Origin: Proteromonas lacertae
Lineage: Eukaryota; Sar; Bigyra; Opalinata; Proteromonadidae
Direction of reading: 5' to 3'
NCBI GenBank assembly: GCA_002245135.1
Contig: NGBS01000019.1
Location: 49,964 to 113,963 of the forward strand
Length of the DNA: 64,000 nt
This document shows positions 832 through 64,000 of the stretch, piece by piece; positions within the stretch are counted from its first letter, which is position 1, and every line of letters begins with the position of its first letter. The notes beneath the pieces were generated by a model. The model saw nothing but the letters and a program-made list of their open reading frames with translations, was not told the DNA's origin and searched no databases. The position numbers and the translations under genes are program-made.

Positions 832-2494
832 TTACATACTTTTATACCACAATTTTATATGTGAATCTAACGAACCAGTAAGGAATGTATTGTTACTAAT
901 TGGATGAAAATCAACACAAGTAACAGGACGTTTATGACACTCTATCTTAACAGAATGAGACAATATCATCGACTGTTGTTGATGTAATAACTGCTGTTGT
1001 GAAGATGTTAAATTACTATTATTATAATGACTATACACTTTAGTATGGTTATTATTATTATTATTATTATTATTTGGTATATAAGAATACATCGTTATTG
1101 AACCATCATTACTAGTTATTGCCACATTCTTATCATATAAATGACTATCAGATATATCACTATCTTCGCTAGTATTATCATTTAAATTATCTTTACTGTT
1201 ACTGTTGTTAAGGTTATTATTATTTAGATTATTATTATTATTATTCAATCGATGTGAAACAGCACACTTTGTTTGAAATCCAATTAATACTTGTGATGGT
1301 TTAATTGTATAAGCGTGTTTAATAAATGATGATTTGTTTATATCATTAGATAGATTATAATCGATATATATTAGATGAACCGTTATAATGATTGGTGATT
1401 ATTATATTGTTGCTACCACTATTATCACTACCACTATTATTATTATTACTGTTATCTTCATCACTTTCATTATCATCAGATATTATACCAATATTTGAGA
1501 TAGCTGAACAACTTGTCTTTGTAGTTAATTCTTTCTTTAACATTTGTCCTCTAACATCCCAAAACTTTATCATTCCTTTCATATCACCTGTTATGAAGGT
1601 GTATTCATCACTAGTTGGTTTGATTGAGGTTAATACACTGTCATTTGGTAGTTGGAATATTATCTTGGAAGATCTCTTGTCAATTCCGTTGATTAGCTTA
1701 TCAGAACCACATGTATAGATTACATTGTTATCTAATTTAATAATATTAATTAATTTATACTGTTTGGATCTAATATAATGGAATTTAGTGCTGATTTTAA
1801 ATTAATAGATGGTAATTACATTTTTGGTGGATATATCCCATATTTTCACTGTATGATCATACGAACAGGAGAATAATGAAGTAGAAGTGCTGTCCCATAC
1901 CAAATCAGATATAATATGATCATGACCCATTAATTGGTTTAAAGACTTAGTTTGAATTCGATTACTACATTCGAAGAATGTAATTATATGGTCAGAAGAA
2001 CCAACACCTATGAATTTACCACAATCTGAGAATTTAGCACAATGAATTGCACAATCTCGGATCTAGCAAATAAAATGTTATTTTTATTAAATACTTTCAC
2101 ACTAGATTGACAGATATAATCACTCGATCTGTGTGATTGACTATGACCTATACAATAAATAAATAACTATAAACAAGATATATTCTATACTATTACTAGT
2201 GGTTGAACTAACTTCACAATCACTAACATCAGATCTTGAATCATCTGATACAATTAGTGATGGTGAAAATGATGACTCATTGTTATTTTTTATTCTAATA
2301 CATTAACAAAATAATCTATACAATGAGCTTAAGAGGTTGACTGATTTACGTAGCTCACGGTTCTCTTTCTCGAGAATATCAATCCTTGCTTTCAAATCCT
2401 TATTTTCTTTGGTTATCAGCTAGAAATAACGAATTAAAAAATGTACATCGAAATGCTCCTGCTGATGTACCTCATATCCCTCTAATTTATTCAT
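832..2494 (-). CDS. WD40 repeat protein, WDR13-like, with two apparent frameshifts
   Basis: A WD40 beta-propeller protein preceded by a short leucine-zipper-like helix (about residues 9-40, ENRELRKSVNLL). Repeat motifs visible in order include SCSYDHTVKIWD, YTCGSDK, TGDMKGMIKFWD, AITSNDGSITMY and TGSLDSHIKLW. The order of the blocks (GHDHIISDLVW..., a propeller with poor WD dipeptides, final SLDSHIKLW) resembles vertebrate WDR13; this is recognition by eye, not a search. Introns inferred on the minus strand are 2470-2420, 2321-2295, 2190-2148, 2094-2063 and two near 1815 and 1720-1750. Frame is not restored across 1812-1824 (a five-A run in the coding strand) or within about 1357-1398, where no splice site fits. 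Either the assembly has indels here or the gene is decaying. Asn-rich tracts lie between repeats near 1030-1250 and 1400-1450. Confidence 0.6.
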
Positions 2495-2716
2495 TAATTA
2501 CAAATGGTTGTAAAACGGCTTTTATTTAGGCGGGCTTTATTACAAAAATACGCTATTATTTGCATTTGTTGAATGGAATATATTATTTTAATACCATTTG
2601 CACATCCTAAGATTTTGAATATAGTTATAAAGCAAAAAGATTTATCAAATTTTTGTCATTTATTCAATAAATCCAATTCCAACAACATATAATAGAGAAA
2701 ATTAGAAAAATAACAT

Positions 2717-3969
2717 TTATTTATTTTTTAATTGCTTTACATACCAACTAACAGCCCATTTCAAATCAATCAACATACACTTCATAGCAGCAGTCCACAA
2801 TTCAGCATTACTATAATCTATTACTATATCACTAATTGTATTTCCTTTAATTACAAATGGTAAACTAAGAGAATTATCTTGAACCATAATCTCAGTACTA
2901 TACTCCAACAATGCATTCAGCAAATACACAATGGCTGTATTAAATTTATTATATCTAAAAAATGTTTTTTCTACATACAATGGGTATTGAGTTTTATCAC
3001 TAATTACACTAATAGCACTAACACTTCCCCTAGGATATAGTTGGTATTTTTTAAAAGTATAATTCATATTTTGTGCTAATATAGTAAGTAGTAATGTTAC
3101 TTGACCTAATGCTGAATTTATTTCATGATTGTCGACTGGATCACTTGATAGGTTGCCTAATCTAAATCCACTGATTACTCCATATCTATTTTCAAACCAG
3201 ATAAAACATGCGTCATTCAAAACATTTGTACGCTTTAATCTTTCCAACTAAATATAAAAAAATATTAAAAAAAAATTTCATTATACATTTGTATTTTTAC
3301 AGTTCTTTTTCTGCTTTATTGATTCAATTTCACTTTTATATAAACTCTCAATCTCTTCTACTGCATTTGCTTCTTCAATACAACACTGTTTCAAATGTTT
3401 TAATCGAATTAGTTTATTTTTCTTTTTATTACTGTCTGAATTATTGTCTTCTCTTTTTTCTCGTATTACACCTATTTCATGACTTACTTCTTCACTCTCT
3501 CTGGTTATTTCTTCAACTGATTTTGATGAAGTATCATTTGGAGTTGATAATTTTTCTAAATTTTCATTTAATTGTTCGTATTGTTTTATTTCTTTTTCTA
3601 ATTCTTCACATTCTTTCTGGTAATTTGTCATTTCTTCAAAACAGCAATTAGGGCATAGTGGATAATCACAATTTGATATAGATGAACTATAATAATAATT
3701 AAAAATCATATAGATGTACCATAAATGGCAAAATGACTCTATATCACAATTATTTGCAACTTCATCAATATAACTATGTAATTCTTCATTTGTTATTTCT
3801 TTTAAAGTTGGAGCCAAACTTTTCAAAGCCTCTATTCATAGTTATAAGGATAAATTGTTCTAATACCTTCAAAAGAATCTTTATCTACTGCTATTGGGTT
3901 CAAACACTTTTGACAATAAACAACATGAGGTCCTTTCGGCGGAGGTGGCTCTACTGGCTGAGCTTCCAT
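2717..3969 (-). CDS. ATG6: Beclin 1 / Atg6 / Vps30
   Basis: Subunit of the class III PI3-kinase (Vps34) complexes that start autophagosome formation and endosomal sorting. The model gives 381 residues from four exons (3969-3867, 3831-3720, 3686-3287, 3247-2717), and all phases close. The N terminus has a CxxC pair (YCQKCLNPI) and a second Cys cluster (PLCPNCC), as in other Atg6 proteins. A long coiled coil follows. The C-terminal evolutionarily conserved domain starts LKRTNVLND and contains GFRLGNL, EINSALGQ and the final LKWAVSWYVKQ. No clear BH3 segment is seen, and the protein is shorter than human Beclin 1 (450). Intron 3719-3687 is 33 nt and stop-free, so its retention would only add 11 residues. 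Confidence 0.93.
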
Positions 3970-4090
3970 AAAGATTGTTTTTTGGTTATCCAAAAAAATA
4001 TAAAAAACTCAAATCAGAATTCAAACTTTTTATTTTTTATTAGTTGTTATTTTATTATAAGAGAAGAAAAACATTTCAGTATTTTACTTT

Positions 4091-7000
4091 TCATTGACTT
4101 TTACCAAATCTCTTTTTACCTTTACCTTTCTGGAATTTAGATCCTCCTTTACCTTTTGAATTTGGCTGTAACTGTGGTGGTGGTAAGTTTCCTTTCCTAC
4201 TACCATCTTTAGTAGTAGTAGTATTAGTAGTAGTAGCTGTGCTATTAGTTGAATCAGTACTATTTCTTCTTTCTCTTTCTTGATCTCTTTCCTGTTTCTT
4301 AATCTCAGTCTGCCTAAATCTAGCTTGATGTTCCTTAATATTCTTATTATTGGCAATTTCTCTTTGTAATAAGCACTTTGGCACTGGGCATTGCATATTT
4401 ACACAACCATTGCAATGTAGTTTAATAAATGGCATGTATTTAGTGCATCTAGCACATCTTCTATTTACACAACTTCTCATATGTTCTACTATCTCACTAT
4501 ACTGTTCATGATCTTCTTTATATTCATCACACTCTGGACATTGACTAACATGTTCAATACCTTCAATAATTCTACTAACCTCTTGAATACTCTTCGAAGC
4601 AGGTTCTTCTGTCTCTTCTAAGGATACTTCACGCAATTCGTGAGGATGTTTTCTAATTACACCAGTTTGCATAGAATCATAACATATTTTACATAAATCA
4701 AAATCATCACATCTATCACACGAATATCTAACATCACATATCTCCTTATGACAAGAATTACAAGTTAATGGGTATAATGGAGATATAGGGTTGTGTAAAT
4801 GATATAACACCATCATAGTACTATGTTTAGCACGACGTAATTGATCAAATTGGAAGTGATTACCTTGACAGAAGGACAGAAATTCTCTTCTCAAATCAAA
4901 CACTTGGCTTGACATTTTCCTATCTTCATCAGTAATTTCCTCTGGAACATTTACATCTACAGCTCTAATCTTATGTCTACCATCAGGATGTCGACAACCT
5001 CTTTCTTTAAAACCAGTTGATCTTTTACTCTCATAACAATCTTCACATATATTCCAAGGTTCTAAATACCTCTCATGTTTGGTATCTTTTGGGTCTTTTA
5101 CATCTCTACAAGATTCACATTCATATCTTTTACCATGTAGAATATATTTTCCACAATAATGACACCAATACTGCAAATGTGCATATAAATGATTCTCTTT
5201 TTGATTTGCCATTTTATTGGCTAATTCTTTGAATAGATTTTCATATTGTATTCTGTTACTTTTATCATCTTTATTAGCTTTCTTTCTATAACTCTTTGGT
5301 CTGCTACTATATTCATTAGTTTCTTGTTTTGTTTCATTATCTTCTTTCTTTGTCATTCTACTATCAATCTCCATCGTCCAGTAATCACCATCAAAATAAG
5401 GTAACATGGATAACTTCATATCATCCATTCTTCTACCATAATTTGGAACTAGAAATTCATCATGGAAATTGGTCCTATGAATTACTGTTCCTAATTCTCT
5501 GCCTCTATTTAACATTGCTTCATACCAACACCTTAATCGATCATCTTTAGGAACTTTCTGTTCTGGAGGATGACAGTGTAATATATAATCATCATTCTTA
5601 CCAGGTGGACAAGCCCAAATGTGTAAACCAATAAAACCTCTTTCCTTGATAGTTTGAATATAAGTGACTAAGAATTCATGATAGACTTTAGTACGGTATT
5701 GTGGAGGATAAAAATATTTCACTGAATCTAAATACGAGATGTAAGCTCGACGTTTGTTTGGTTCTGGACATTTATCATCATATTCTTCCACATATAATAC
5801 CATCAATATAACATCTACATGATCAATCTTTTGGAATAACACAATACACTTTGTATGACAGTTAAATTGTTTTGGATAGGATGAATCATGGATTGCTTCT
5901 ACTATTTTAGGTTTTGGAATTGATATTCGATCATAAGATGATACTACTCTTACAGTTAATTGATTACATTCAGGTATTTCAGATAAATCAACTCCTTTCT
6001 GTTTAGATTCTATTTGACGTAATTCTAATACTCTTTTCCTAATAGCTTCTTCTAAAACATCACTTAAATGACAGGTTGGTAATTTAGAAGCATCTAGTGG
6101 AGTAGTATTATCAATAGGAGAAGCTATTCATAATAATAATAATTATTATTATTAATATATACGTATTTTAATTTCATTATATAACCTCATTAAACACTTT
6201 GGACAACAATATAAACTATCTTTATCTCTTGCATTTCTTCTATTATTAAACAATGTACATATGATATGGTACCACTTATTACAAAACTCACATAATACCC
6301 AACTCTCTTCAACAACATCTTCATTCTTTCTTTCAGTAAAATCTGCTTTATGAAACTTCTTATCTCCAACTTTAAACTCTTCTCCAAACTTTGTATAACA
6401 AGATTTACATAAATGAACTTTATTTTCACCATCTGCATAGTAATTCACTCCTTTCTTTATCTTCTGACTACACACATTACAAAAGTATATTGCAGGTCTA
6501 AATAACAACTTACTACCATTACAAATTGGACATTTAGATGAATCTAATGAGTTGGACTTTTCATTATCATATTTTCGTTTTGCTAATAAATATTGCTGTT
6601 TAAATTCGGCTAATAATTGTTTAGCAGCTTGATGATAATATGTACCTTCAGGATTATACGTCATACAGTTGGTATAACACAATTCAACATCTCTATATAA
6701 CTCCTCCGGTGTTTTATATTTACCATCTTTGAATTTCTTATTCACTGTTCCCATATCCATTGGATGTGTAATAATCTTGTTATAATCAGGAATATTATAC
6801 CTTTTAACATCTACAGGCTCTTTAAATATATCAGCATATGAAGCATTTGGTGGATAATTATAAAAATATTTAATTACATCGTTAAAACACTTCTTTAAAT
6901 CTCTTGTTGTATCAGTTGAACCACAATCATTACAGCTATTGATATGATCATACACTTCACCACTTTTTAACATATTCAACATACATGAACCTCTAAGAGG

Positions 7001-7735
7001 AATTTGTAATCTTCGATCTGACCTTAGGTTCAATAATGTCATATCATCATCAACTAATCTTGCTGGTGAACACTTATCACAACATGGATCACTACAATTA
7101 TCATAATGCAGAAGTATTTCACGTATTTTTCTACAATCGATTGAATCAAAGTCTTTACAACCTGAACATTTCGTTGATGAGATATGTTTCGTCACATTTT
7201 TGTATTTACAGAGCGGAGAGTTACAGTCACTGTTACAACACCTTCGGCAATGCACAAGACACCTTGAGATTTCGATGATTTTACTGTTATCTTGTCTTGG
7301 TTGTGTATTCTTAGCTTTCTTTGTGTTTTGACGGACGACTGACATATCATTTTGACGTTTTATTGCAGTTGTCTCTATTTTGTGTTGTATTTGATCATAT
7401 ATTTGATTTATTTTGAGTATAAGGTCATCCATTCCTAGATAATTCTTTACTTTTCTGTTAGACATGTATAAATAATACTCAACTACCAAAGATATTCTTT
7501 CTAATCTCTCTGTTGCAAATCTCTTCTGCATTTCATTCATTAAAGGATTCTTCGATACTTGGTGTTTGTCAAATATATACTTTTTCACAAACGCCAACAT
7601 TTTCGCTCTGTCTTCATTTGAAATACTATATTGAGGATTTTGTGAAACAACGAGCTGATTTGGATTTACGGCCTGAATTTGCTGGCCAGGGTAAAGTTGG
7701 GTTTGTGCGTAAGGGTATCTTCGATCTGCTATCAT
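4091..7735 (-). CDS. p300/CBP-HAC type histone acetyltransferase with bromodomain
   Basis: Nuclear lysine acetyltransferase and transcription coactivator. Two exons (7735-6163 and 6123-4091, a 39-nt intron between) give about 1201 residues. Domains in order, positions approximate: a helical N-terminal segment (40-130) reminiscent of the KIX-like region of plant HACs; a TAZ zinc domain (155-230, CRRCCNSDCNSPLCKYK); a bromodomain (280-370, ITHPMDMGTVNKKF); a Cys-rich RING/PHD block (405-520); the KAT11 catalytic domain (about 540-800, with RAYISYLDSVKYF, HIWACPPG and the catalytic-loop WY in RLRCWYEAML); two ZZ zinc fingers (about 845-915 and 975-1025); and a second TAZ (about 1060-1140). The tail is basic and low complexity. 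ATG at 7735 is chosen because the frame closes just upstream. A possible 5' UTR intron (7767-7737) ends right before the start. Confidence 0.93.
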
Positions 7736-7868
7736 TCTATTAAGCAATAAAATTCAATATGTCATACAATTCAGTAAATAAATAAAAAAATAAAAATATA
7801 ACACAAGCCAAGCCTATTTTTTAACCTGCTCTATCTCTTCTTAGCTTAATATTTTTTGTATGTAAAAT
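7736..7868. promoter_or_regulatory. Bidirectional promoter region, 133 bp
   Basis: The acetyltransferase (minus) and the EDM2-like methyltransferase (plus) start 133 bp apart, so both promoters must sit here. The stretch is AT-rich with T-runs, and no defined motif is claimed. Two chromatin-type genes sharing one promoter is suggestive of co-expression, but that is inference. Confidence 0.5.
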
Positions 7869-51628: not shown

Positions 51629-54600
51629 CTAAATATCTCCCATAGAAGTAGAGTTATGGGTTGAATTCTGTGTTGAGTTGTGAATGAATTGATTTTGTTG
51701 TAGCTGATCATCTGAGGATGAATAACTTGGTTGTACTTTACTTACACTAACCATATGAGAAATGTGATGATGAGATGTTGATCCATTTCTATCCAAAAAT
51801 ATACTTCTTGATGTAATGGCTGGTAATTCAAACTCATGATCATCTGTTACTAAACGACCATTATCTTTCACGTGTATTTCTATTGCCATCCATGCAACAA
51901 TACCGTTAATAAACAGTGATTCACATTCTAATAAGAATGACATTATGTTATGACATTCTATTGATATAGATGCATATGGACTATGAAGGAATTTATTCCA
52001 ATAATCTTCTCTCTAATGTATATATGAAATAAATAGATAAAAAATATACTTCTATTTGTAATAATACTTGCTTTTGTGCATTTGAAAAGATCAATGGATT
52101 CTATATATACAGTAAATCATTAAAAATAATTAATTAATACTCTTGTTAATCTGTATTGTTCAATTTCTTCTGTAATTTGACAATTCCATTGTAGGTTGTC
52201 TGGATTATCAGGACTGAAATACATTTGATAAATATGATCTAACACAGTACCTGCATTGTTGTTTGGTTCTATTGGAATTGTTCTAAACTGATTAGCATCA
52301 ACCCAAAACTCAATACTATTTATATATTAATAGAATAACATATATATACTATCTTGAGTAATGATATTTCTTCAAAAACATAATAAATAGAGTTGATATA
52401 ATTGGTTGTTTCAGTTCTTCGGCTAATTCTTTCAAATAATAATCAATTGGATTATGATATCGAAAGAATAAAAAAAAGACTGGAGACATTATTCCAACAA
52501 GTAAAACCATTTCTACATAAGCTTCAACAATTATCACATCTTCTGATTTATAATAGAAAAATGGGAATATGTTCTGTGTCAATAATAATAAATGGGCAAA
52601 ACATTCTGAAATAGCATATACATAATAATGATTAATAACTGAATATCTAATATAATTATTCATACCAACAACAATGAAGATTATATCAATAATAATCTAT
52701 TTAGAAAAAGAGAGTAAATCATTGAAATTATACGAATGAAATAGATATAGACTTCTCAAATATTGGAAATACTAAAGAATCATCACCTATTATTATTTAT
52801 ATAAACAACAACAACAAATATATACTTTTATGATTATATAAATAAACTATTACACAAATCAATATTCCAATTATATATCCCAACATAATTACTACTTTAA
52901 TCCAAGTGTTTACAGCAGTAGATGGATAATATGTCTTAAATGAAAGTTCACTTACTTTACTAGATAAAAGACCTCTATATATATTCATTAGAAAAAAAGT
53001 AAAATATACATCAACATAGCAATTGAACCTATTTGTAAAAGCACAAATCCAACGTAATAATAATAAATCTTTCTATAAAATGAAAAACATAATAAACCAC
53101 TACATTCTACTATGCTACCAGCTAATAACAGCAACAAATAACTATTATTCTTTCTAAATATATTTTCTTTTGTTCTAAATATTGCATTAACGAATATAAT
53201 TGATAAAAAGGTAATTCCTAACGAAGACAGTATTTCTATACCTCTGGTAGTTGGTGTGAGAGATGTACTTTTCTATTACAGATAATATTAATAATAAACA
53301 TATATATATATTATACAATTTTCAACCAATCATATTCTGGACTGATGATAGTTTTAGGTAATATTCCACCATCTTTAAACTGAACTACTCTATTGAGATA
53401 TTCACTATTGTCTGTATTTATATTAACTATTCTATTACTGTAGTTTAATGATCCATAGAATGTATTCCAATAAATACACTTTAGTGATGCACAATCTGAA
53501 TTCTTTGAACATATTTTAAAACGTATATTTTTACATATACCAAGATTATGAAATACTATAAAACAATAATAAATACATAAAAAAAATACCATTTTTAAAA
53601 TCTAAAAACACTGAATCATTATAATAATTCTTATTCCATAATTCATCATCATTTGAATGTATTCCATATGTCTGACCATATAATTCAATCACTCTTTGAA
53701 TAGTAATACCAATAATTGAGCCACGAATTATGCTAAAAGGAATATACTTTGTCTTTAACATTGTCTCTTTATGATCAGTAGGAAATCCAACTATTTTGTC
53801 AATATTGTCATATATTAAATTAAAATAATCTGTAAATGTACCAAAATATTCACCACTTTCTCCATAAGTATTGTTTTGAAGTGGTAATAATCCGTGAATA
53901 TATGGAATAGTCATTCTTTCATCTATAATAAATGTATATATTGCTTTTGGATTAATATTATATTTAGGAAATAGTTTTCTAAATATTCTTAGTGTTTGTA
54001 CTGTAACTCCTAATATAATTACAGCTTCATTTGAGATATTTTCTAACTGAGATAACCATTCTTTATAATATTCAATTCTTTGAACTGTTGATTGAAATTT
54101 CTATGATAAATTCATAATATATATATATACCGATTTTAATATTGGAAATTGACATGTATAATCAGTTGAACAATCAGTAGAGTAATAACAATTATTAGCT
54201 AAAGCAACGTGTCTCTATATAACAGAATAATTGAAACAATCAAATTATATATAAAATACAAATGTTTTGCATCTGGAAATTGACATTATAACATTGTCAT
54301 GAATATCGATTATAGATTTCAATGCTTCTAAATAATGTAAATAATAATCTTCACCTTCTTCGCCTATTATTATGTATCTCTTTACATTATTATTCACAGT
54401 AAAATGTTGGTATATATTCATTGCAATATCATATGCTGATTTGAATGGTGAATACATATAATCATATTGTTTATTCATTTCACTCTCAAAATATGGTCTA
54501 TTAAGTGATTATATATATATATACGAATTTAGAAAGTATGGTATTTTAACTCCATGATAATTATATTTATTATTATAAAAACTAAGTGAATCTATTGATT

Positions 54601-55158
54601 TAAGTATTGCTTCATAATTTTGTGGTGAGATTAAGAAATGAGGACGTTGTGATTTTATTCTTTCTTCTATTTGACTATAGAAAAATTTGGAACATTCAGC
54701 GAATTGTGATGAACTAGAATACTATTGATAATAAATTAAAAAAAATATATACTTCATTATTAGGCAACCACAATACAACTGAAACTATAATTCTATATGG
54801 AAGATTATTGGTAAAAAGAAAATACTTTTCATTACATGTACTAAGCTTTGAAGTTACTTTATCTAAGCATATTCCTCCAATTCTATTTATTTCATCTCTC
54901 CATAAAAACAGAGATCGAGCAAATAACAATGCTGCATAGATATAACTATTATGATATATACATTGATATCTATCATTACCACTAGTATCTAAAAGACCTT
55001 CAATTCTTATCGAAACGCCTTCATAAGGGAACTTTGAAGAATCATCGAATAATTTGAATTGGTCACAACAAGCATAAACCTATATATACCATAAATCATT
55101 TAGCATATACAAAATATGTTGAAAAGGTATATGCAACGATAAAAAAGAGAAAACGCAT
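51629..55158 (-). CDS. Receptor with ligand-binding ectodomain, seven helices and C-terminal RGS domain
   Basis: A protein of ~1,040 residues from about 13 exons. A signal peptide (RFLFFIVAYTFSTYFVYA) precedes a ~560-residue ectodomain with alternating helices and strands of the periplasmic-binding type (YIIIGEEGEDYYLHYLEALK, AVIILGVTVQTLRIF, IRGSIIGITIQRVIELYG) and a Cys-rich juxtamembrane part (NLGICKN, DCASLKC). Seven helices lie between 53270 and 52400 (EILSSLGITFLSIIFV, YLLLLLAGSIVE, YYVGFVLLQIGSIAMLI, WIKVVIMLGYIIGILI, FIIIDIIFIVVG, VYAISECFAHLLLL, VEMVLLVGIMSPVFFLFF). An RGS domain follows (YYLKELAEELKQPIISTLFI, IEFWVDANQF, AGTVLDHIYQMYF, IFSNAQKQVLLQIEREDYWN), so G-alpha GTPase activation is built into the receptor. 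A Ser/His/Asn-rich tail ends it. A 60-nt candidate intron near 52610-52660 was rejected because keeping it gives exactly seven helices. Confidence 0.8.
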
Positions 55159-55207
55159 ATTCAATATAAAAAAATAGTAGTTTCATATACCAATACAAAT
55201 AGTATTA
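55159..55207. promoter_or_regulatory. Very short bidirectional promoter, 49 bp
   Basis: The 7TM-RGS receptor (minus) and the giant ligand-binding protein (plus) start only 49 bp apart. The spacer is AT-rich with an A7 run; no motif is claimed. Both 5' UTRs must be tiny or overlap. Confidence 0.55.
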
Positions 55208-58200
55208 ATGTATTTGATCTTAATTATTTTCATTCACATTGCCGCTTGTCAAGTATTGAAATTAAACATTTCAATACCTCTATCAGCATCAGAACAATAT
55301 GTTCATACCCATATTGAGTTATTTGATCAGTTGAGTAAAAAATTTCAGGATTTATTTAATTTGGATTATAATAAAAACCCATCGAATGATAGACACATGA
55401 TACTGATAGGCCAGAGAAATTATGTCACCCCTTATCTTGTTTTTAATGTAGAATACAAAATCAAACCGCTATGTAGTTATAACAATCTATATTTTGGTCA
55501 TATCTACAATTGTGTATCTAAAGGTATATCATTTATTAATAAAATATGTAGTAACGCTATTGTGTGGAAGTAAATTCAAAATGAGGCGATTTATAATTCT
55601 TGCAGATAGAGAATATACAGATGATTTTAACAATCTACTGAAATATATAGAAAGGCAAAGTTTCAAATCCGTTTTTATTTCAGATATTCCATCTCTTCAG
55701 TCATATCTATCATTACTAACTCAGATACAAGCATCAGAGACTGTGATCTTGAATTTTTATTCTGATTATGAGGAATTCAACAGTTTCTACTCATCCTTTA
55801 ATCAACTTCAATTTTCATCTTCGATAATGCATGTTTTATTTTTCATTGATGAATATTACACAACTAACTACAAGAACAATTACAACAATACATATATAGT
55901 ATCTCAATATTTTCAGTCTATTGATGAAGAATCTACATACAAGTTGTTCAATTTAAGCAATAATGATTATGTTGATAATCGTTTAAATGGAGTTGTAAAA
56001 GTTTTAACATTCTTGTTATCTTCTAGTGGTGAGACATATACATTAACAAATGCTAGTTTTTATCCTTTATTCCAAGCTTTAGCAACTAATTACATTATTG
56101 ATTACAACAATAACAGAATATTTGATCATTATTTCATCAGAACATCATACATTGGTAAAGTGAATGAAAGTGGTAATGTAAATGACATTATTAACCTCAA
56201 TAGTGATGTACCTGAATATCCTATGGATTTATGGGTATATGAAGATCAAAATATTTGTAGAAATGGTGTAATAGGAAAAGAAGATGCTATTTTAATAGGG
56301 TTTATGAGTGTTACTACACATTATTCACAAAATTATATTGACACATTTAGAGGTATTGTAGAAACAATTGATTTTATCAATTCAAATGTATATTTATATT
56401 ATTATTTAATATATTTTTTTTAGTCTGGATTATTAAACAAGAGAATCAGGCTAGTATTACCAGAATATTCTACAGATAATATAAAAACCAAATATGATTA
56501 TCTAATGTCATTTAAAGTGGATATTATCATATATTATTCTTCAACAAGGATGTATGATGATATTATCAGTTGCATTGATAATAAAAGTCCATACGTATTT
56601 ACAATAGGATATAACAGTGGAGAAGTATGCCATCCAAATATTATTCCAGTTGGTACAAATATTCCTACTCAAATATATTATTTTGAAACACTTTATTTCC
56701 ATGAAAAAATATATGTTCTATATTCGAATACAATATATGGTAGAAATGGCTTTGATTATATTCAAAGGGATAAGAATCAAACAAAAGAAGAATGTATTGG
56801 ATTTATGGTTAGAAATTCAAATTCAGATGAAATGAAAAAGAGTATAGATGAATTAATATCAGTAATAAATGGTAGTGATGAAGGAAGTATTTATTTGATT
56901 GGTATTTTAGGTGAAAATTATACCTCTTTATTTATGAAAGAATATTATCAATATAAAAATTACTATCCAAATGTAATAGTTTATTTGATGGATATGAATG
57001 AGAATGATTTTTTAAACAATGAATTATGGAATGGTTATTATTCAATTCATCCATTTATTTCAACTGAGTCACTTCCTAGAAACCTTTCAATGAGATTTAT
57101 AAAATATCATTCAAATTATAAAATAAGCTATTTTGAATATTTAGGTAGTTTATCAGTAAGATTATTTGAGAAATTGGTAGTAACATGTTCATCAACTAAT
57201 AAAGATGATTTTAATGGGACAATAACAGATTCAGGAATATCAATAGATGATCCAAGCATATCGTTGTTAAACAATAATTACATATCACTACCAATTGGTG
57301 ATTTAGTCTCAATAAATGATGGTAAATATTCTACAAAGCGTAGTTTAGAGCCACACTTGATACATTATCCATCTTATATTCGTGATTCATTGACAGGTAC
57401 TATGTCAAAATGTGATTGGCAATCTGCAAATTATATTTCAAAAAATAATAAAATCAATGTGATACTTTGTTTATATGATGATGTTAATGAAGAAAATTCA
57501 TATTGTTTAACATTATTCTACATATTTTCATTCTATGGAAGTTCGGCTTTTTATTTGAACAATGATTTTTCTATAATTCCATTAAAGCTACCATTAGCAA
57601 ATGATCCTTCATATAATGATACTTTATTATCTGTATTGGATTTTTATAAACCAATTATAGTGTATGGTTTTAGAGATTATAAAGAAAAATCAACTTTGTT
57701 GGATATAATGTCTAGTGATATTCCATTATTAGGTTTGCATCAAAATGATGATTTTACAAACTATGATAATATGTTTAATTTTGGTATAGAAACAACTGAT
57801 TATGTTGAAAGTATTATACCGTTTTTATTTTTGAATGAAGATGTACATTGTTACTCATATATAAGTAATAATAATTTGTATAACCAAACAAAGATGTATA
57901 GTTTATGGAATTACTATCAAGAAACATATAGATCTCTATTATTTTATTATGCTCTTTATGATTATGTTGATATAAGTGTAAGTAGATTATTAAATGATAA
58001 AAATATATGTCAAAACTATCGTCATTCATTAGCAATATTTATTAATTTAGACAATCCTGAAGCTGAATCAATTGCAGAAATAATTAAAGAAATTCAATCT
58101 GATGATATTATTGTGATTTATTTAAGGAATTTGTTTAATTTTTATGATTCACACGTCTTTACAAATCAAATTCAGCTTATATCGGAATATATACCAGAAA

Positions 58201-61200
58201 AGAGTGATAAGATATATTTGAATTTAGAAAGAATAAAGAATAGTGTCAATATATCAGAGAATGTCTTTTATTTTCATTTTTTAGTTGCGTATATTATTTT
58301 ATAGCTATTAATATTTTTTATAGTTATTACTCGTATGAGTTTGTTGTTAATAGTATGCTGATTGACAGTTCAACTGGAAAATCAATTGTGGAATCACTAC
58401 CTACAGTTAATCTTCATTTATCATCAAAATGTATTTCATTTAGTGTTATTTATATATGCTATATAGGGACATTGAAGTTTTCTAAACAGAATAATTTAAT
58501 CAAAACATTATCAGCTATAAAGAATACTGGAAATAATGTGAAAATCCAACCAATTGTCCCATATATCCAATTGTCAAGTAATTTTGTTTATGGAGAAACA
58601 TTTACAACAGGAGAAAAAGAATCAATTCCAGTAGGACTTATCATTGATTTGAAGAGAATGAAAGCTGAATCAACGTCATTGATAATTGCTTTTGTAACAG
58701 TAATGATACATTACTCTGATTTAAGATTTGTTTTATATGATGTAGGAATGTATGGAACTCAATATTTATGGACTTATTTCCATTCAGGGAAAGTTAGAGT
58801 ATTGTTTGGTTTGTTAGATAAAGTATTTCAAGAAGAAGGTGATGATTTCTTAAAAGATCATAAAATGATATTTTATAATTATGGCTATCCATTTAGAAAT
58901 GAGAAGTATTTAAATAATGTATTTCAACTCAATTCAATTAGTGATTATGTGTCATTTATATCATATATTTATTTAACTGATCATGATAATAGTTGTTTAT
59001 TGGTGTTAGATACAAATAGTAAGTTTGATGATTTTAATCCATATTTACTTCAATTATTAAATGAATTTAATATAATAATTCCACATGTTTATGTAAATGA
59101 TACAATGGATGTTTATGATGTTCTTAATGTGATAATGTTAGAAAGTCCAATAAAGAACAACATCATTTTGTCGTTAGATATAATGTATCAGAATAGCATA
59201 ATTGAAACTTTGTCAAATTACTTATTTGAAAGAAAAATGAAATTAAGTGTTTTGCATTATAATTATAGAACATATCTTGATAATATAACACATTTCACCT
59301 ATACAGATGTAATTGATTTTAATGATCTTCATTATCCTTTTATTACATTAAACAAACCAGATAATACAATGCCATTATTATATACTATGTTGAATAGGTA
59401 TTTACTGTACAATGAAACAATGAATCAGTCTGAAATATATGATGCATTGATGAATGATAGAGTTAATTTTAATGAATATCATCAATCTGAAAAACAATTA
59501 TACATTTTGAATGGAAAATATGATGTAATTATTAAAATACCTAATAATTCTACAATCTTTTTTAAGAAAAGAGAATATTATTACAAAGTTGGTGATAATA
59601 ATACATCGGATAGTAATTATATTGGTTTGTTGTTTGACAATAGTGATGATGTTTTTGATATTTTAGTTGGTTTGGAAAGTAGGCTATATAACAATGATGA
59701 TAATAAAGTATTATTCATTCCAATATTTATTGATAATGAAAATGATATTGTCGAAAAGATGAATGAGTTTATAAGTAAAACAAAAGTGTATATTGGAATT
59801 ACTTCAAAAATTGTTCCTACTGAGCTTGTTTCATTCATAGAGGATAATAATGGATTATTATATCATTTAGGTAAATCTACAATGGTTTCATCATCCAAGA
59901 ATATTCTTTCAATGAATATTAATATGATGTCAATTGTTTATACTTTTATTGGATTTATAAAAGAGAATTGCGATTCTACAATTGTTTTATTAGATGAAAA
60001 GTATTATAATTCAGAAGATATGAATATGATAATTGAAGAAATAAAATATCACTTTGTTGATATTAGATCAATTTATTATATAAGAATAGATAAAGATTCA
60101 ATTGTGTCATTCGTTGATAAAATAATGAATATGCTATTAGAAAATAATTTTTGCATTATAAATTTAATGGGTAGATGGACTAATAAGTTTATTGATGAAT
60201 TAGATTCTAGGTTAAATACTTTTCAAGACTTAAAATTGGTTAGTTTTGATGTAAAATTAAGCATGGATTTACCAAAGCCAAATCATTTCAATCATTATTT
60301 ATTTCAGTTTGATTCTGTATCTGTAAATGATTATGAAAGTGTATTTGTGAATCCATTTTACAGTTTATATAACAAGAATTATCTTATAAATGACATAGTT
60401 ATTCAAAGTTATGTTGCTATCGTAGAATGCTTGAAGAAGTTTACTACTAAAGACAATTTTATTTATATTACAAATAATCTATTGAATAATGATATATTAC
60501 TGTATATTGATGAAGGTTATAACTCAATTACAAATCAAAGACAGTTCAATGCTCAATGGAGTATAAGATACAATAATTTGGATCAATGTCCAATAAGGCT
60601 AAACAATGATTTTATAAGTCAAAAGAAAATAATAGGTCTTTTACTTGGATTGACTGGTTATTATCAATATGTTAACTATCAAATATTGTCAGCTGCATTG
60701 ATAAATATAATACAAATATCAAAATTTTCATATGAAATAATTGATACAAAATCAACAAAAGAAGGTTGTATTGATGGGTTAAAAACAATGATTGATAAAG
60801 GAATATTGTTTATTGTAATGGGTCATGGTATGTATGATTGTTTAAATGAAAGTGTTGACATATTAAACAATAATACTGAAAAAGATGTGTCTATATGGTA
60901 TGTAGAAAATACACCTGGTTTTTTCTGTGATAGTAGATATGTATTCTTTGGTACTTTACCAAACCACTTTTTATCACCAGCTTTATACTTTTTTACTTCA
61001 AACTCATCTTTTGATAAAGCTTATATATTTTATGATTCATTGAGTGATAAGAGTTATAAATATTATTTAAACATTGATAATTTGTTTAGTCAATCTCCAA
61101 TTAAATATGAAGTATATTCATTAGCTACAACTGATAAAGAAAGATTAGGAGAAATAATTAGTAATAAAAATGGTATAGTGTTTTTAGCACATGCAACAAA

Positions 61201-64000
61201 CAATAAATTAATAGAAATTGTTACTTATTTACATAGCATAAAAGCATATGTTAATAATAGAATATTTATGGTTGAACAAACTGAAGACGAATTGGTATAT
61301 TTCAAAGAAGACGTATTAGAGGGATTTTATTTAGTTGATTCTACATTTTCCATTATAGATAGTGGTGAAGACTATATATATTTTGCGCCATTATCTCCAT
61401 TTTTAAAATCAAACATAACAGCTGAAATGTCTAATGTAGTAACTGTGACGTCATTTATTATACATGCATTCCAAGGATCTTCAACTGAAACATTAAAGGT
61501 GTGTTATCAAAATAGGTTTCATTCATATGAAGGCGCAAAATCTTTAGAGAGTAATAACTATTTGAAAAGAAATTTAAAAATAGTAAGAATATTACAAAAT
61601 AATAATCTTGAATTAGTATATGATGCAAATGGTTTAGAGCCTGATCCTTTTTATTATTCATCCGATTCTACTCAAATTTGTAACTTTTCTGGTGAAAATG
61701 GACTTGTGAAAGTGAATAATATTATCTTAATTGATCATCAGTTTGAAAAAGAATTTATTGAGTTTGTATTTTACTTTTATTCAAAAAGGACAGTCATCGG
61801 GTTGGTATTTGATTAATTACAAAACTTATGTAGTATATAGCAATGATGATTGTAGAAGATATTTTCAACAATTTGTTGATAATGAAGATATCTCAACATT
61901 AATTGTGATTAATATAGATGTATGTTCTGATGAACTATTTTCTGAATATAATAATATAAACAGAACAATTTGGATATTATCAAACTATCCAAACAATTTA
62001 AACCAATATAATACATTTGAAGGTGGTTTGTCAGTAACTCATACTATTAGACCAGTTTTACTTCATTTAGTTGCATATAAACATAGAATTCCAGTAGCAT
62101 TTATAATAAATCCAAAATGGAACAAATATTATTCATTTATAGAAGAATTACTTCTAGAATACAATCTAAAGTTAGTATATAAGCTATATTCTACATCTGA
62201 AACAGAAATATATAAATCAATAAAACATTTGATAGAAGTTTGTCCACAAGGTATTCATCTGTTTATTGAGCAGAATATTATTATATTGAAAGGTATAATA
62301 GATGAAGTTAATTTACTTTCTAATAATAATACAAATGGATTATTTGATTATCTGTCATTTATTCAATCTCCAAACTATTTTATTAATGATCCAAATTATG
62401 TTAGAATTGGAACATATTTGCACAAGTTGGCAGAGTCAAGTGAGGTGTTTGAACATGAAATATTGAGAAGATTTAATAATGAAGATGGTTATCCTTCAAT
62501 ATATTTTATCATTACAGAATATAGTGGAAATAAACACAATAGAATCAAATATTTTTAATTGGCTTGATTTCAAAAGCTATAAATCAGCAATATATGGTGT
62601 AATGATTAAAACAATAGAAGGAAAACTTAATGTTGAAATAAATAATAAAATGAAAAGGAGATTAGAAGTATCCTATTATGAAAATGATGAGTATAAAGAA
62701 TATATGCTTGGATATACAAATGTATTTCTTAATACATATACATCAACCCAATCTAATATGGAAGTAACTGATTGTAGTTCTTATAAATGTTATAACAGGA
62801 CAATAGTGACAATCAAAATTGCATTAATCATTCCTAAATGTAGTTGTGATGATGATGTTTATAAAACAATGATTTCACCATTTTTGTTTATTCACAAATA
62901 CTTCCAAGTGAGTTATTTTTTTGATAGTATGAGTTATACTATTTATCCATTTATAAGTGAATATAATGAAACAATTACGTTAAGTAAATACATCGAAGAT
63001 TTGAAGGAAACAACTAAAATGTCATTAATAATTACAAATCTTGATTATATAACAAATTTAGGAGATATTAATCTCTTAAAAGATATAATTATATTTAATT
63101 TAGGTAAAGGAATAGATGATTATGTTAGTCCAATATACACAATAGGTCCATCATTGGTTTCAATTTCAAATGAAGTGTATTTGTCTATTATGCAACATCG
63201 AAGAAATGATATTTATATCTTATTTACTGATACAGTTAAAATTTCAGCAAAAGTGACTGAAAACTTCAATAAACTATTTCGTGCATCAGGTTTTTCCATT
63301 CATCTAGTCAATTATAAAGATGATAATATAAATTCAACTTATAATATGTTAATGGATTGTTATAAATCATATAATTGCTCATTTATAAATGCATTACCTT
63401 GCTCAATGACTGTTTCATTGAATAAAGAGTTGCTGAAAAGAGTAGACATAGAAAAACCATTATGGAATGTTTATATATTATTTCAGGATATATCTACAGA
63501 CAATTATTTTGATTGTTATTTACCCGACAGTTATTACGTTTCAGGATATGTGTCAATGCTATTGCATCAACACAATGTAACAATAGTGAAAAATGAAACT
63601 GTAAATTATTATTATTTCATTATTAATTATTTGGATGAATCATGGAATAAGAATTCTGAAGTTTCTTATGCCTACGATGCTATATTGATTTATTTGAATT
63701 CCATAGATAGAATTGATAATTTTTATGCTACTTCAGTAACTGGAAATATGTTATTCAGAGAATTTGTTAGTCCAAGTGGAATTATATCTTTCATAGATAA
63801 AAATCAGCTTTCTAGAAACATTTATTTTGGGCAAATAACAACCTCAAACACAGCAACAATTTTACATTACAACAATTTATATGCATCATCACCATCTTTA
63901 GAGGCAAATTTGAATAAAGCAAACATTTATATAGGATTATTATTAGATACAAAAGGAGGAAATGAAGAAGAATTATCAAGACAAATAGTGTTGTATTCTG
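55208..64000 (+). CDS. Giant secreted/surface protein with tandem periplasmic-binding-type receptor modules (3' end outside window)
   Basis: An open gene of at least 2,860 codons. A signal peptide (YLILIIFIHIAACQ) starts it. Six small introns are inferred (55524-55551, 56388-56423, 58289-58323, 58431-58466, 61766-61793, 62488-62524), the last least certain. The rest is a chain of modules, each opening with a hydrophobic strand and a helix: AILIGFMSVTTHYSQ (~56280), INVILCLYDDV (~57450), IPVGLIIDLKR (~58630), YIGLLFDNSDD (~59620), KIIGLLLGLTG (~60630), NNIILIDHQ (~61720), IKIALIIPKCS (~62810) and IYIGLLLDTKG (~63930). Spacing is about 1.0-1.17 kb, or 330-390 residues, the size of one type I periplasmic-binding/ANF-receptor fold. 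Module 1 (~55240) is less regular. No membrane helix occurs before the window ends. Many N-x-S/T sites fit a glycosylated ectodomain. Confidence 0.75.

Follow-up and report, generated by a model that had tools for sequence, protein, structure and literature searches.

A 64,000-nt stretch of the Proteromonas lacertae genome (contig NGBS01000019.1, positions 49,964 to 113,963; below, the window) ends in most of a gene that very probably encodes a giant G-protein-coupled receptor (GPCR) of class C, resembling GABA-B, with nine flytrap modules and a seven-transmembrane (7TM) domain. The gene lies on the plus strand and opens with an ATG at 55208; its long frame runs out of the window at the far end, where the contig (C165) itself stops exactly, so that the gene is truncated there (table 1). 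The genome assembly comprises 50.2 Mb in 1,181 contigs, with a GC content of 26.6–28.1% in five 19-kb stretches sampled outside the window.

A search of the same genome with the window exon 58319–61813 gave 17 matches (40 of 61 candidates scored). Among the matches listed were a copy on contig C612 (98% identical), a stretch on C166 (99% identical, with degraded pieces preceding it), and relatives on C168, C1147, C390, and C758 with identities of 29–33%. At the DNA level, the C612 copy is 98.75% identical to the window over 6,321 columns, and the C166 copy 99.4% identical over 5,910 columns, from window position 58101 to the window end. On C166 a single frame, 1,961 residues long, starts within module 5 and continues to a stop codon, with 7TM-like hydrophobic segments after module 9. 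Judged from the coordinates, the whole protein would have about 3,575 residues, about 1,614 of them encoded in the window before the C166 frame begins.

Three predicted introns of 28, 36, and 35 nt interrupt the gene, in place of the six proposed in the first-pass annotation, which had been made from the letters of the window. Their lengths are in keeping with the introns of Blastocystis, which are about 30 nt long, and the relative L032 changes frame at the same module boundary as intron 3. Two further introns of our first gene model (61766–61793 and 62488–62524) were rejected: because both near-identical copies read through there, the frame changes of the window near 61.78 and 62.50 kb are one-base differences in homopolymer run length and not introns. 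A helix that seemed to be missing from module 7 was likewise a product of the wrong frame, as the copies showed.

Table 1. Features of the receptor gene in window coordinates
Feature	Position	Strand	Evidence and remarks
Start codon and hydrophobic, signal-peptide-like N-terminus (MYLILIIFIHIAACQ)	55208-55252	+	N-terminus of P0003 similar
Flytrap module 1, split by intron 1	55253-56282	+	HMM domain E 6e-5, second HMM 3e-5; weak
Intron 1, 28 nt, GTATAT...TAG	55524-55551	+	Predicted; rejoins open reading frames 55181-55573 and 55452-56423
Flytrap module 2, split by intron 2	56283-57449	+	HMM domain E 3e-24; HHalign up to 95%; PF13458 E 0.0012
Intron 2, 36 nt, GTATAT...TAG	56388-56423	+	Predicted; final 3 bases double as the stop codon that ends the upstream frame
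Flytrap module 3, split by intron 3	57450-58621	+	Position in array; HHalign 64% to module 3 of intermediates
Intron 3, 35 nt, GTATAT...TAG	58289-58323	+	Predicted; also in C612 copy
Flytrap module 4	58622-59611	+	HHalign 97% to module 4 of intermediates; in AlphaFold model
Flytrap module 5	59612-60622	+	HMM 3e-11; HHalign 96% to module 5; in AlphaFold model
Flytrap module 6, best modelled	60623-61708	+	HMM 3e-17
Flytrap module 7, with the one-base run-length breaks	61709-62808	+	HHalign 99% to module 7 of intermediates
Flytrap module 8	62809-63918	+	HHalign 99% to module 8 of intermediates
Flytrap module 9, first residues	63919-64000	+	Remainder, seven membrane helices, and tail on C166 (L031:5816-7930)

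The flytrap array

The first-pass annotation had read repeated strand-loop-helix openings, spaced at about 1.0–1.17 kb, as a chain of at least eight PBP1-like (type I periplasmic-binding) modules. This reading is supported: all three of its quoted openings are present (YIGLLFDNSDD in module 5, ~59.61 kb; KIIGLLLGLTG in module 6, ~60.62 kb; IYIGLLLDTKG in module 9, ~63.92 kb), and nine module starts follow each other at 1.0–1.2 kb (~55.25, 56.28, 57.45, 58.62, 59.61, 60.62, 61.71, 62.81, and 63.92 kb), eight of the nine modules being supported by sequence beyond their position. The protein-database relative P0003 (3,886 residues) has nine modules, starting at residues 16, 397, 790, 1171, 1562, 1949, 2335, 2726, and 3116, and a 7TM domain from about residue 3502; aligned to it, the window gene has the identical nine module positions. 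Modules are about 330–390 residues long, and those within one protein share 17–28% identity, which is about the level that a global alignment of unrelated sequences can reach.

We scanned the proteins with a hidden Markov model (HMM) whose training set, 57 modules, came from the other family branch and contained no relative of the window gene. At a domain E-value of 0.01 or below, this outside HMM finds all nine modules of P0003, modules 4–9 of the relative L032, and modules 1, 2, 5, 6, and 9 of the window gene together with its C166 copy (module 9 in the latter, 2e-8; module 1 over residues 74–343; remaining values in table 1), and none in reversed versions of the scanned proteins. The matches are beyond chance, since a model without window relatives finds them and the reversed sequences do not. 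Pfam, to which the first-pass annotation had looked for confirmation, gives little on the window exons by itself, the best match being the weak one to PF13458.

With HHalign, the profiles of the close window branch were compared with the other branch and with four intermediate relatives. Taking the best match to any module of the other branch, modules 2, 4, 5, 6, and 9 reach 95, 93, 96, 98, and 96%; modules 7 and 8, for which the profiles were built from the C166 copy and relatives, reach 85 and 64%; and modules 1 and 3 reach 5% or less (0–2% for module 3). Only modules 5 and 6 are clearly best with their own number in this comparison; module 7 gives 81% to module 7, and module 4 gives 92–93% to modules 8 and 3 and only 12% to module 4. 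Against the intermediates, modules 3–9 are each best to their own number (64, 97, 99, 100, 99, 99, and 100%). When the window branch is pooled with the intermediates, the own number is best against the other branch also, at 99–100% (99% for module 3), with high off-diagonal matches too; reversed controls give 9% or less. Modules 1 and 2, with at most two sequences in each profile, fall off the diagonal. Module 3 has the weakest support of the nine, and module 1 was missed by HHalign in both comparisons (at most 5%). For the relative L024, the labels 1 and 2 are uncertain: its N-terminal piece was labelled module 1 in the MAFFT cut, but window module 2 matches it at 95%. Modules 3–9, at least, thus already stood in their present order when the branches diverged.

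The true window protein matches its relatives at a composition-adjusted E-value of 1.2e-18, compared with 0.12 for the reversed and 0.57 for the shuffled sequence; without adjustment such controls reach 1e-5 and 8e-7, and unadjusted E-values were excluded as evidence. In a protein-database search with the window exon, 5,868 candidates were compared and none reached E ≤ 0.01; one with the database protein P0001 returned three relatives, all of a single source, at E ≤ 1e-5 among 4,750 candidates, at the sensitivity of that tool.

The repeated two-lobed fold predicted in the first-pass annotation is borne out in part. Structure search matches the type I two-lobed fold for modules 6 and 9, and modules 4 and 5 lie within the AlphaFold model; modules 1–3 are proposed from sequence. 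For the flytrap modules tested, UrtA/AmiC type I substrate-binding proteins share the fold and are the best match by sequence profile, although these are single bacterial binding proteins, whereas the window gene strings its modules together and joins them to a 7TM domain.

The membrane domain and the receptor family

The possible 7TM end beyond the contig that the first-pass annotation had allowed for is present on the C166 copy, after module 9. In an AlphaFold model, this C-terminal part of the gene has seven helices, and GABA-B chains are the best whole-chain fold matches. A 7TM profile of 12 relatives, including the C166 copy, matches GABA-B2 at E 2.4e-29, and GABA-B2 is also its best PDB match. 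A cysteine pair (C453 and C543 in the L031 row, the C166 locus) is invariant in all 12 sequences, and we take it to be the class C pair of the top of helix 3 and extracellular loop 2. Module 9, a type I flytrap, adjoins the 7TM domain on its N-terminal side, as is characteristic of class C. No cysteine-rich domain was found between the two: the L031 linker before helix 1 contains one cysteine, and modelled helix 1 (residue 385) begins about five residues past the last strand (377–380). The short linker without a cysteine-rich domain, together with the best match to GABA-B2, favors a GABA-B manner of signaling. Two sets of residues, WRIHK following helix 3 and FNES preceding helix 6, align with GABA-B2 and are kept in some form in nine of the 12 rows, but are lost in the three rows of the window subfamily (L031, L032, and L033); because of this loss, the receptors of this subfamily may be non-coupling partner subunits and not the drivers of the G protein.

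The gene belongs to a large family. In the same genome we counted 132 matches to PF00003 (nine of them under the cut-off, 36 in open frames of at least 2,000 residues), 31 to PF01094, and at least 112 to PF13433, all over the cut-off (112 scored of 683 candidates); these counts include stop-containing matches, fragments of exons, and copies that are nearly identical, and the number of genes is lower. Eleven long frames (2,709–3,332 residues as fetched) contain five to eight HMM modules each, the first often cut, and each of the 11 carries a 7tm_3 match in frame with them; on C713 (3,223 residues) there are eight modules and on C830 (3,211 residues) seven. P0003 stays in one frame at places where its C104 relative shifts, a sign, though no proof, that P0003 represents a spliced transcript. 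Two groups of contigs bear 7tm_3 matches of identical score (C18, C475, C957, and C287; C842, C1106, and C859) and are either recent duplicates or unmerged haplotypes. Upstream of the window on its own contig, C165:2552-8861 holds a second array receptor, with four Peripla_BP_5 matches in a 1,732-residue frame and a 7tm_3 match with internal stops; both strands of C248 give equal scores. Module 9 of L033 (C390, frame 1399-5265, minus strand) contains a stretch of about 40 threonines.

In several paralogue pairs, the membrane-proximal modules are better conserved and the outer ones diverge faster: between C713 and C356, identity is 40, 36, 35, 51, 59, 62, and 72% for modules 3–9 and 86% for the 7TM domain. 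Candidate downstream signaling components are encoded as well, with 12 matches to G-alpha (six over the cut-off by themselves) and 85 to RGS. RGS domains look strongly expanded, several standing in one frame (e.g., on C85 and C633), and a 687-residue frame on the minus strand (C1118:51837-52937) matches both RGS and, below the cut-off, 7tm_3, making it a candidate receptor–RGS fusion.

Readings of the array

Several observations weigh against a nine-flytrap class C receptor. The sequence evidence for modules 1 and 3 is weak, and if the intermediates are left out, modules 4, 7, 8, and 9 of the window branch are not best against their own number in the other branch. The gene's own 7TM domain matches PF00003 only at E 0.071, under the curated cut-off, whereas that of a 43% identical relative gives 1.1e-7. 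When Foldseek matches the whole chain, the flytrap and the 7TM domain do not superpose as one rigid body (root-mean-square deviation 26 Å). The identity gradient, tested in eight of 16 pairs that are not independent, has Spearman coefficients of 0.71–1.0 in five of them and 0.57, 0.34, and 0.31 in three. Finally, the three near-identical copies all have frame breaks, at positions that differ between them.

The array might instead be mainly a long stalk or an adhesive or decoy coat, in which most flytraps are non-binding spacers or variable surface and at most two modules signal. We regard this as possible but doubtful. It would agree with the rapid divergence of the outer modules in several pairs, with a large family containing near-identical copies and matches with stops (some possibly introns), and with a motif, retained in the other branch, that has largely disappeared from the window-branch modules. 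However, length and order are kept across branches at 15–20% identity, beyond what a mere spacer needs, and the 7TM and G-protein parts are still present.

The frame breaks raise the question of whether the window copy, perhaps with its near-identical copies, is a decaying pseudogene within an otherwise working family. The window contig has two breaks, and there are several others in the C612 copy (further on) and in the initial 2 kb of the copy on C166. Yet both window breaks are one-base run-length differences found in neither other copy, the positions differ in each copy, the breaks concentrate near contig ends, as errors would, and C166 has an uninterrupted frame from module 5 onward to its stop codon; we consider decay improbable. 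That several adjacent single-module receptor genes or an assembly artefact have been taken for one giant gene is barely credible: the window gene model derives from genomic DNA, and the contig stops inside the gene, but 11 other loci have single open frames with five to eight modules and a 7TM domain, and P0003 has nine modules and a 7TM domain in one frame.

To return to the reading as a nine-flytrap receptor, computation shows the modules themselves (weakly for 1 and 3), the fold of the best modules, the 7TM domain, and a family in which module order is conserved. The predicted protein would begin with a signal peptide, carry nine tandem type I flytraps, and close with a membrane domain of seven helices and a short tail; it would act as a chemosensor at the cell surface. 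Small molecules taken into one or more of the clefts would alter module closure; module 9 would relay the change to the 7TM domain, and this to G-alpha; the faster-diverging outer modules would provide diversity of ligands and reach. We propose, tentatively and as something we find rather unlikely as a whole, that several of the nine flytraps bind different small molecules which one GABA-B-like 7TM domain sums, in combinatorial sensing, and that the modules came from bacterial-type urea/amide-binding proteins and multiplied before the family radiated. If so, a protist with dozens of such genes would sense its surroundings combinatorially.

Comparison with described systems, limited to the portions of the sources available, places the gene apart from each of them. 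The ANF domain is the flytrap of GABA-B and metabotropic glutamate (mGluR) receptors. GB1/GB2, which form an obligate dimer and bind GABA, resemble the window gene in their PF00003-type 7TM domain, whole-chain fold, and flytrap joined directly to helix 1, but have one flytrap per subunit in place of nine, and the window flytraps are nearer to bacterial urea/amide-binding proteins than to the GABA-B flytrap. The mGluR/CaSR/T1R subgroup differs in its cysteine-rich domain between flytrap and 7TM domain. Amoebae have ANF or BMP domains on receptors. Anaerobic gut fungi likewise have an expanded class C family with bacterial-type binding ectodomains in a microbial eukaryote, but their N-terminal domains, of 200–1600 residues, are type II substrate-binding proteins in about half and pectin-lyase folds in about 30%, with no ANF domain in the text available (PMC5168858), whereas those of the window gene are type I and nine in series in a protein of more than 3,000 residues. 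Diatom class C receptors, stramenopile like ours, are basal to GABA-B and 300 to more than 1000 residues long, seven having a PBP-like N-terminal domain, although the available text describes no array (PMC3727952). The bacterial diguanylate cyclase CdgH also carries tandem periplasmic-binding modules on a membrane signaling protein, but these are two, of the PBPb type, on an enzyme (PMC5431781). Among the matches listed in a literature search for periplasmic or tandem flytraps in class C receptors, bioRxiv preprints and most subscription papers lying outside its scope, none was, by its title and the opening of its abstract, of the nine-flytrap kind, and we rate the receptor as a previously undescribed variant of class C GPCR.

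Known class C receptors normally have one binding domain per 7TM domain; here there are nine in series and in fixed order. The family poses the questions of how a signal passes along a chain of flytraps, whether one 7TM domain could sum many ligands, and how protists sense chemicals. Its parts are separable, so that single modules could be expressed and screened for ligands. Class C receptor expansion now extends to a likely relative of Blastocystis: in a FastTree phylogeny of MCM2, the window sequence and an 88% identical database protein stand beside Blastocystis with a support of 0.955, and the wider group with Ascophyllum and Chrysoparadoxa has a weak support of 0.48. This placement fits a bigyran stramenopile; an anaerobic fungus as the source was rejected on account of it and because gut-fungal class C receptors have no type I domain in the text available. 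It should be noted that the tree covers one gene only and 51 sequences, made up of the window protein and 50 among 120 listed hits, with lineage or rate artefacts possible.

Other features of the window

The divergent neighbor of the receptor gene (51629–55079, minus strand) contains, across several possible exons, stretches that look like membrane or receptor sequence; four pieces of it gave no Pfam match at E ≤ 1. One piece (53549–54100) matches C996:40022-40264 at 30% identity; an RGS match lies some 1.2 kb away on that contig. Also on the minus strand, 4091–7753 contains p300/CBP-like pieces with HAT_KAT11, ZZ, bromodomain, and PHD matches.

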